The notes under the pieces were generated by a model. It was not told where the DNA came from, did no database searches, and was given only the letters and a program-made list of their open reading frames with translations. Below, piece after piece: positions 12,945-42,410 of a stretch of 56,134 nucleotides of DNA. The position numbers and the translations under genes are program-made. How positions within the stretch are numbered: position 1 is the first letter of the stretch; each line of letters begins with the position of its first letter. Source of the DNA: Stutzerimonas stutzeri (lineage in GTDB: Bacteria; Pseudomonadota; Gammaproteobacteria; Pseudomonadales; Pseudomonadaceae); the NCBI RefSeq assembly GCF_024448985.1, contig NZ_JAMOII010000023.1, positions 1 to 56,134 of the forward strand, read 5' to 3'.

Positions 12945-12966
12945 GTAGGAGCGAGCTTGCTCGCGA
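12945..12966 (+). repeat. REP, GTAGGAGC family (left of an inverted pair)
   Basis: GTAGGAGCGAGCTTGCTCGC plus GA. Its inverted partner is at 13341-13361. Together they bracket the bipartite element at 13003-13281. Confidence 0.8.
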
Positions 12967-13002: not shown

Positions 13003-13281
13003 CGCGCTTATAGTGGCCCATACCTCAGGTTTCGCCCTGCTTGGCGAGTCCCTTTTGGCAAATACCCCAAAAGGAACCAAAAGGTCTTGCCCCTCCATCC
13101 GGGTCTCGCTGCGCTCGACTTCCCTTATTCCATCACTGCTTCGAGGGCCGGCGTACAAGGGCCCCTGGAACGTCACCGGAGCGAGGGGCCCCAGGCAAAG
13201 CCTGGGCCGGATGCAGGGGCAAGCGTTTTTGCTTACTTTTTTGGCAATTGAAAAAAGTGAGTCGCCCAGCAGGGCGAAACC
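13003..13281. repeat. Bipartite inverted repeat element, copy 1
   Basis: Two inward-facing arms. The left arm begins GGTTTCGCCCTGCTTGGCGA at 13028 and holds an 8-bp stem CCTTTTGG/CCAAAAGG (13051-13058, 13067-13074) with an 8-nt loop. The right arm, read on the minus strand from 13281, begins GGTTTCGCCCTGCTGGGCGA and holds the stem ACTTTTTT/AAAAAAGT (plus strand 13235-13242, 13251-13258) with an 8-nt loop. Both arms then reach CTTGCCCCT and CATCCGG. A related element lies at 41764-42410; shared flank on the left suggests the unit starts near 13003. Frames read through it are not believable genes. Confidence 0.85.
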
Positions 13282-13340
13282 AATGCCTCAGCCAGCTCGT
13301 AAAAAGGGATCACTCAGCGAACACAAAGCACAAAGCGCTT

Positions 13341-13361
13341 CGCGAGCAAGCTCGCTCCTAC
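13341..13361 (-). repeat. REP, GTAGGAGC family (right of an inverted pair)
   Basis: CGCGAGCAAGCTCGCTCCTA plus C is the reverse complement of the REP at 12945. In an ordinary REPIN the two heads lie about 60-110 bases apart; here they are about 375 bases apart, with another element between. Confidence 0.8.
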
Positions 13362-41235: not shown

Positions 41236-41763
41236 GAAACTGTAACCTACACGGCCCGCCAGGTTCGGCCCCGGTCCGTCAGTATCCCAGCAGCGGCCTC
41301 TGACGATGATGCCGAGGTTGCTTGGCTGGATTGAAGCGCGACTTGAACGCGCGCACGCCGACTAGCGATCGAACCCTACGCGAGGCTGAGAGCAGAGCAG
41401 AGCAGAAGGCATCATCGCAACCGACTACGCGATGGAGACCGGCGCGCGGTGCATCGAGACGCGTGGAGTGCTGGTTCACTATGCGCTGCAGCGTTACCAG
41501 GCCAATACGGCGGCGCAGTGGATTCAGGTGCCGAACTGCAAACATTGAAGAGGTGGTTTGTATTGATGAGCCCGCCAGACAACATCGCGCTCCGTAGAGG
41601 TGAACGTGTTCGCCCGTTGCGGATTGGCTACGGACGGCGGCATGTCCTCTGTGGAGTCTGCCAATTGGCCAAGTTGCCGCTCCGTCGTTTTTTGCAGGAG
41701 CGAGGGGGGCGTCGAGCCCTTGCTCGCGAAATGGTGCCGGCGGCGCGGGTATTTTTATATGTC
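41236..41763. other. 528-base stretch with no recognisable gene
   Basis: No frame gives a known protein. A short frame ending at the TGA of 41548 (from ATG 41432, 38 codons; GVLVHYALQRYQANTAAQWI) has protein-like composition and may be a gene remnant. A GAGCA microsatellite of about three and a half units lies at 41389-41406. The stretch leads directly into the bipartite repeat element. Confidence 0.5.
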
Positions 41764-42410
41764 GCCGCGCTTACGGTGCCCCGGACCTCAGGTTTCGCCC
41801 TGCTGGGCGCCTCACTTTTTTCAAACGCCAAAAAAGTAAGCAAAAACGCTTGCCCCTGCATCCGGGTCTCGCTGCGCTCGACTTCCCTCATTCCATCCCC
41901 GTTCCGGGGGCCGGCGTACAAGGGCCATCCCTGGCCCTTTACGCCTCTCGCGGCATCCATGCCGCTCGCTCCCCTCCACGAGGATTCCATTCGGCCTTCT
42001 GAAAGGGGCGTTCGGTGTCGTCTGGTAGATCGTGCTCAGGCAAAACGACAAACTGTTTTAAGGCAAAAATGGTCAGGTAGACGTTTCAAAGTTTTAGAAG
42101 CCGCCGCTGCACCGTGGCAGGTGCAGATGGATGGGACGCAAACGACTGTTCACTCGCTCTTTTCATACGATCTATCAGACAACACCGAATCGCCCCTTTC
42201 AGGAGGCCGAGCGCAGGTGGCGCGGAAGGGGTTGAGCGGCATGGATGCCGCGAGAGCCGCGATGGGCCATGGATGGCCCTTCGCGGCGGGCCCCTGGAGC
42301 GTCACCGGAGCGAGGGAACCCCGGCGCAGCCGGGGCCGGATGCAGGGGCAAGACCTTTTGGTTCCTTTTGGGGCGACTGCCAAAAGGGACTCGCCCAGCA
42401 GGGCGAAACC
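41764..42410. repeat. Bipartite inverted repeat element, copy 2 (long form)
   Basis: Left arm from GGTTTCGCCCTGCTGGGCGC at 41791, right arm inverted and ending at 42410. The left arm carries the stem ACTTTTTT/AAAAAAGT (41814-41821, 41830-41837); the right arm carries CCTTTTGG/CCAAAAGG (plus strand 42364-42371, 42380-42387). Each has an 8-nt loop. Unlike copy 1, the arms continue inward as an imperfect inverted repeat to about 42033 and 42167 (sharing CTCGCGGCATCCATGCCGCT) around a 133-base unrelated core. Several long frames cross it; none resembles a protein family. Confidence 0.85.

Follow-up and report, generated by a model that had tools for sequence, protein, structure and literature searches.

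A dispersed inverted repeat of Stutzerimonas stutzeri with a predicted triple-helix pseudoknot beside RsmA/CsrA-like hairpins

Two copies of a dispersed inverted repeat, elements A and B, lie in the 56,134-nucleotide stretch of Stutzerimonas stutzeri DNA analysed here (the window; contig NZ_JAMOII010000023.1 of assembly GCF_024448985.1). Comparison of the copies of this repeat reveals a predicted pseudoknot with covarying stems and a third strand that covaries with it, located beside RsmA/CsrA-like hairpins on the same strand. The structure is drawn from covariation, and we infer that selection acts on it at the level of RNA. Our preferred reading, to which we assign a probability of about 0.5, is a dispersed non-coding element made of an inverted pair, whose halves are selected as RNA and would have a role in RsmA/CsrA binding.

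According to this reading, each half of a full copy would carry, from the centre outward, ANGGAY hexaloop hairpins, the pseudoknot and a terminal GC hairpin. The pseudoknot would have the order 5'-S1, Y2 plus one nucleotide, S2 (13 bp in the c-like class), S1', a short loop and S2'-3', with Y2 placed in the major groove of S2 as T·A-T and C·G-C base triples. As the halves are inverted, a transcript crossing the element in either direction would carry one sense half. Its ANGGAY hairpins would bind RsmA/CsrA and in this way either titrate the protein or bring the transcript joined to them under Rsm/Csr control. The 3' side would be protected by the triple-helix pseudoknot and the terminal hairpin, and the unlike arms would reduce pairing between antisense and sense halves. 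More tentatively, the element may possibly be a mobile post-transcriptional module, in which an array of RsmA/CsrA-binding hairpins capped by the triple-helix pseudoknot provides a link to Csr/Rsm in either direction. A preliminary description of this DNA had proposed a non-autonomous mobile element, a protein-binding pair or a structured transcript; the last is the best supported of the three, and the protein-binding pair may form part of it through the ANGGAY loops.

The same description had located four arms in the window, two per element, and all four are there. Each starts with GGTTTCGCCCTGCT, continues with an 8-bp stem and an 8-nt loop, and then reaches CTTGCCCCT and CATCCGG; stem a occurs at 13051-13074 and 42364-42387 and stem b at 13235-13258 and 41814-41837, as described. 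The extent first given to element A (13003-13281) does contain its arms, but the element is larger, with REP hairpins on both sides (Table 1). The two 75-nt arms of element A are 80% complementary and spaced by 104 nt, and the 220-nt arms of element B (41791-42410) are 75% complementary. Both copies are weak members of the family, with an S1 of 2 bp and triples of 4-5.

Table 1. Positions of the parts of elements A and B in the window
Feature	Positions	Strand	Details
REP hairpin outside element A left arm	12945..12966	+	GTAG tag outward; 61 nt outside the arm
Element A left arm, type a	13028..13102	minus	sense strand (centre to outside)
Terminal hairpin, element A left arm	13033..13046		CGCCCTGCTTGGCG
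Predicted pseudoknot/triple core, type a, element A left arm	13050..13086	-	S1 scored 2 bp, triple about 4
S2 of element A left core	13051-13074	-	CCTTTTGG/CCAAAAGG
Third tract and S1 partner, element A left core	13075-13086	-	
Element A right arm, type b	13207..13281	plus	sense strand
Predicted pseudoknot/triple core, type b, element A right arm	13223..13261	+	S1 scored 2 bp, triple about 5; layout GCG-UUUUU-G-CUUACUUUUUU-GGC-AAUUG-AAAAAAGUGAG
Terminal hairpin, element A right arm	13263..13276		CGCCCAGCAGGGCG
Inverted REP hairpin outside element A right arm	13340..13361	-	58 nt outside the arm
REP-like hairpin with insertion, outside element B left arm	41694..41730	+	60 nt outside the arm
Element B left arm, type b	41791..41866	minus	sense strand; S1 scored 2 bp
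Terminal hairpin, element B left arm	41796-41809	-	
Core of element B left arm	41811-41849	-	
Hairpin, element B	41922..41937	-	hexaloop AGGGAT (ANGGAY); sense strand
Hairpin, element B	41950..41965	-	hexaloop ATGGAT; sense strand
Rfam RF01731 TwoAYGGAY match, element B	42229..42293	+	45.3 bits, gathering score 43
Hairpin, element B	42236..42251	+	hexaloop ATGGAT; sense strand
Hairpin, element B	42264..42279	+	hexaloop ATGGAT; sense strand
Element B right arm, type a	42336..42410	plus	sense strand; S1 scored 2 bp
Core of element B right arm	42352-42390	+	
Terminal hairpin, element B right arm	42392-42405	+	

The order within the arm is a purine tract that closes the hairpin, then GTAACC or a variant of it, then a second purine tract. 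Outward from this linker, the two tracts are identical at first and then switch to being complementary. Over 221 distinct tract combinations this mirror-then-complement pattern scored 1664, whereas 200 re-pairings averaged 851 and never exceeded 939. Runs of at least 3 complementary positions stand directly in register in 91 of the 221 combinations (at most 36 by re-pairing), and S1 runs of at least 3 are found in 157 when an offset of one position is allowed (at most 38 by re-pairing). The centre-outward strand of each arm, which is complementary to the strand bearing these purine tracts, fits a putative H-type pseudoknot made of S1, Y2, S2, S1', a short loop and S2'.

The formal count used the 67 arms, among 222 distinct ones, that form the most numerous class without gaps (stem of 9, loop of 6). 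S2 is paired in all cells of these arms, a full pairing that is partly built in because the arm finder selected arms with a paired S2; two-sided changes occur at 9 of its 13 pairs. S1, which was not selected for, is paired in 94.0% of cells; its two-sided changes number 42 cells, against 10.8 in shuffles and 0-12 in slides, and its covariation score is 0.414 against 0.119. Two of the five measures for S1, the number of pairs with a two-sided change (4) and of further pair types (9), did not go beyond shuffles (93 and 108 of 500). Two interleaved covarying stems, as expected of an H-type pseudoknot, are present, S2 pairing coming in part from arm selection. The selection on structure suggested earlier is strongly supported by S1 covariation, two-sided S2 changes and the re-pairing scores of the tracts, and the plain 8-bp hairpin with a free loop is rejected because the loop end and the downstream tract covary with the stem.

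Y2 runs parallel to the purine strand R of S2, and 527 of 536 cells in the same 67 arms form T·A-T or C·G-C; shuffling Y2 among arms gave at most 442 matching triads. Among the cells that are not plain T·A, 93 of 102 agree with these triads; slid registers reach at most 27 of 161 (17%), and the most favourable antiparallel one 58 of 137. An alternative Watson-Crick pairing of the second tract, or a direct repeat, was rejected on this comparison. Many loci were fetched by a pattern that fixes AAA after the linker, and five Y2 columns are free of it; there, 327 of 335 cells fit, and 88 of 96 among the informative cells (other than plain T·A), with controls of at most 22 of 105 for the slid parallel and at most 58 of 125 for the antiparallel arrangement. 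At the level of sequence, the parallel third strand with Hoogsteen-type triads is found. Y2 does not simply copy R where the tract contains a pyrimidine: of 4 cells with T in R, 3 have G and 1 has C in Y2, and of 12 cells with C in R, Y2 has T 6 times, C 5 times and G once, two arms supplying two of these pyrimidine cells each and several cells lying at the edge beside S1. G·TA, T·CG and C·CG are the preferred triads of the pyrimidine motif.

The strand in use is suggested by wobble pairs. A sequence profile that left the four pairs of the stem extension unconstrained retrieved 62 distinct arms; their centre-outward strand has 49 G·U cells in this extension against 4 A·C cells; 45 of the 49 sit at one pair, so they may represent one inherited state. 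Hexaloops such as ATGGAT, AGGGAT and AAGGAT are on this same strand. In the 90 half-elements of 45 non-redundant elements, the sense strand has 133 ANGGAY hexaloops closed by stems of 4 bp or more and the other strand has 0, with 0-1 in shuffles, and in 158 stretches of other taxa the count was 80 against 14. As no loop can read ANGGAY on both strands, the ratio of 133:0 shows the motif rather than the strand used. The GGA triplet by itself is only mildly enriched (864, compared with 742 in dinucleotide shuffles), and element A has no ANGGAY hairpins.

ANGGA-type hexaloops are the RsmA/CsrA motif. As in the Csr/Rsm small RNAs (CsrB, RsmX/Y/Z), multiple ANGGA loop hairpins occur on one strand of the element, element A excepted; unlike these RNAs, the element is dispersed, multicopy and inverted, and ends in a predicted triple-helix pseudoknot. 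We looked for a sigma-70-like promoter at element B and found none. The interiors of elements match the Rfam family TwoAYGGAY (RF01731, clan CL00106) above its gathering score, in element B and in 6 of 20 sampled loci (9 matches there). These matches are partial, covering model positions 43-115 of 168 with one segment per half, and are fragments internal to the repeat (42229-42293 in the window; L006, L037, L046, L047, L055 and L252), so part of the Rfam family may be derived from the repeat. A link of the TwoAYGGAY loops to CsrA is proposed in the available part of PMC4333381, and the passages on this family that we could consult do not describe it as part of an inverted repeat.

The arms in the window are no chance resemblance, since the arm recurs across the genome. 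The arm search gave 18 matches in this genome, 3 short ones being spurious; after inspection of the matches and addition of one further copy, there are seven two-armed and three one-armed copies. Stems are of type a (CCTTTTGG), b (ACTTTTTT and variants) or c (ACTTTTTCTTG...CAAGAAAAAGT, one c copy starting CC). The proposal that each element has one a and one b arm is right for elements A (a/b) and B (b/a) and, in all, for three of the seven pairs of this genome, but the other four are b/c; none of the seven is alike. Similarly, loop length is constant in the four window arms but not in the family, where the C12 copy has a longer loop through an insertion. We observed the insertion CCGGATGGCCGGCCCC or a similar one in the hairpin loop of this copy (L003) and of many arms, in other genomes too.

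As a strict rule, the pairing of a with b fails in this genome, and the pairing of unlike arms stands as a tendency within the genus. Among 45 non-redundant pairs of the genus, 1 has arms at most 6 edits apart against 5.4-5.5 expected on re-pairing, and 2 have arms at most 9 edits apart against 9.3-9.6; for arms at most 3 edits apart, the observed 1 does not differ significantly from the expected 2.2-2.3. The tendency is weaker outside the genus: in broader searches, 6 of 39 pairs have arms at most 2 edits apart, three Caballeronia loci among them. In the loci of these searches (a few from the genus), adjacent arms at most 1100 nt apart face each other in 42 of 47 cases. One reason for unlike arms could be to limit pairing of an antisense half with a sense half; another could be that long perfect inverted repeats are removed. 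The best predicted fold of the whole single strand of element B is one long hairpin that zips both halves (-402 kcal/mol), a model in which long-range pairing forms despite the unlike arms; the sense half alone is predicted to fold into local hairpins.

The element is a dispersed repeat common to many Gamma- and Betaproteobacteria. All 12 genomes of the same genus in the comparison gave matches (short or weak ones only in G006, G008 and G009), and none of 6 order-mates of other families did. In a sample of the phylum, 18 of 398 genomes contain the exact arm pattern and none contains the reversed pattern; in a different order of the same class, the exact pattern occurs in 32 of 200 genomes. Among the matches listed by a further search are named genomes of Dyella, Xanthomonas, Caballeronia, Cupriavidus, Thiobacillus, Azotobacter and others. 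Short arm-like hairpins in myxobacterial assemblies (Cystobacterineae MAGs L236, L238, L243) are candidates outside the Gamma- and Betaproteobacteria. With one c-type arm as query, we obtained one partial match in 72,556 plasmid records, on a 4.9-Mb replicon, and no match in 50,697 phage records or in E. coli genomes, and carriage by plasmids or phages was rejected on these searches. A pattern search of 2.9 million viral contigs returned 25 stretches: 10 arm copies, 14 instances of a shared 67-nt viral stretch (L338, L344, L345, L347-L351, L354-L358, L361) and 1 other non-arm. This 67-nt stretch was discarded as an arm, since it matches only by the fixed letters of the pattern and has no arm hairpin.

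Presence and absence of the element at individual sites suggest that it spreads. The search for empty sites in related strains proposed in the preliminary description did yield filled and empty alleles. At a putative MCP-like gene (from its translation), arms are present in 11 of 30 fetched loci and absent from 18, and L110 has a remnant only. This remnant is a 24-nt palindrome, GGTTTCGCCCTGCTGGGCGAAACC, perfect except for its 4-nt centre, as if the interior had been lost through slippage between the terminal hairpins. At the C2 site the element is present in this genome, 19 relatives with both flanks readable have no arms, and 10 were not interpretable. One C2-site locus counted as armless, L177, contains a short degenerate arm-like stretch (GGGTCACTTTCTCTTCG...), perhaps a decayed copy. 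The site L422-L429 has arms in 2 of 8 genomes. Upstream of a putative SbcD-like gene (from its sequence), which is the site of element B upstream of 42484 in the window, at least a partial arm occurs in 28 of the 30 fetched loci (L129-L158) and two arms in 23, with arm types and orientation swapped between species. By a simple open-frame heuristic, the genes flanking 45 elements are 28 tandem, 9 convergent and 8 divergent, and these elements show no 3'-UTR bias in neighbouring genes.

The nearest known kind of repeat is the intrastrand-triplex repeat BoxC/PIT of E. coli and other bacteria (also TM-ECO), which shares the rule of unlike pairs: in the passages of PMC4666352 available to us, type A is joined to type B in all five inverted pairs. 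A DNA element of this kind, whose single-stranded arm would form an intrastrand triplex that stalls replication and causes local rearrangement, with no RNA function, is a rather unlikely explanation. The same passages describe for BoxC a Y-loop-R-spacer-R' mirror motif, an intergenic location, no association with phages, plasmids or transposons, and deletions that leave a small hairpin, which the L110 remnant resembles. Our arms have three triplex-capable tracts on one strand and inverted unlike pairs as a tendency (1 of 45 pairs within 6 edits), and their clade-wise presence and absence is as for a DNA-level element; the mirror pattern by itself is just as compatible with a purine-motif DNA triplex formed by the opposite strand. 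BoxC is, however, G/C-rich in this source, with a 3-nt spacer and a reading as purine-motif DNA triplex, whereas our element is A/T-rich and has S1, an extended S2, G·U wobbles and ANGGAY hairpins. The BoxC consensus CCCTCNCCC N3-6 GGGNGAGGG N3 GGGNGAGGG was not found in the arms, which are A/T-rich with a GTAACC-type linker. S1 covaries here, while the one E. coli BoxC pair that we examined has a mirror exception A to T and no complementary S1 run after the tracts. The excess of sense G·U over A·C in the stem extension and the exceptions in R, which suit the pyrimidine motif and include no BoxC-type A-to-T among 13 purine exceptions, also argue against a DNA triplex, which moreover leaves the ANGGAY loops unexplained.

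A selfish non-autonomous element of REPIN or MITE type, with single-stranded DNA hairpins recognized by a transposase (for example a RAYT acting on the outer REPs), is less probable still. It draws on REP hairpins that stand in fixed orientation 49-60 nt outside an arm. Of 90 flanks, 20 have such a hairpin, those on either side of element A among them, with 19 of the 20 at 55-60 nt and none in reverse orientation at 49-60 nt; a scan for the GTAG tag marked 17 of the 90 flanks, and the two inverted GTAG-tagged REPs of a REPIN are both present at element A. Two Y1_Tnp genes, of which one contains an internal TGA, occur in this genome as well, and the C2 site, filled only here among readable loci, and the alleles at L422-L429 fit movement of this kind. 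Yet 70 of the 90 flanks have no REP by the same scan, the conservation of the SbcD-like site indicates rare movement there, comparison of filled and empty sites yielded neither exact ends nor a target duplication, and the ANGGAY loops and base triples would have no explanation. As some copies lie between inverted REPs, RAYT (REP transposase) may be a mover of the RNA-selected element that we prefer. Very improbable is a bidirectional terminator or attenuator, in which transcripts from either side would meet a terminal hairpin and a T-rich stretch: although inward-facing terminator-like sites occur at both arms of element B (4 in the region against 1.4 expected), the T runs are the paired strand of S2, BoxC motifs are without terminator activity in the available text of PMC4666352, convergent genes are not over-represented, and a terminator needs neither Y2 nor S1. 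That the element is part of a protein-coding gene has a negligible probability; long open frames do span element B on both strands, but several overlapping frames are open simultaneously, element length varies widely, the two halves repeat each other in inverse orientation and substitutions respect base pairing, and a coding gene was ruled out on the multiple frames and the varying length.

To our knowledge, natural triple helices in bacterial RNA are mainly those of a few riboswitches and antitoxin RNAs. As far as the available passages go, the SAM-V riboswitch (PMC6061858) places its first loop in the major groove of stem 2 with base triples, and the type III antitoxins ToxI/CptI (PMC4627078) have the same H-type triple topology; both are likened to the arms by topology alone, and differ in that the third strand of our element covaries with the stem at 8 positions. 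The Pseudomonas repeats R178 and R200 (PMC2718517) and Ppu-1 (617 bp, PMC2267715) have a similar size and dispersion, being compared by description only, and one of them may be a relative catalogued without a mechanism in the parts of these papers available to us. In the PMC passages available to us, we found no description of the element as a triple-helix pseudoknot. Base triples backed by covariation in a common chromosomal repeat make their formation and use directly testable. If the preferred reading is true, part of the orphan Rfam family TwoAYGGAY would be explained, BoxC-type repeats would be extended to RNA, and repeats would be able to spread RsmA/CsrA binding sites through genomes. 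BoxC-like GGGAGAGGG repeats are present in an intergenic region of L174, at a site without our element, and the genus therefore contains repeats of both kinds.
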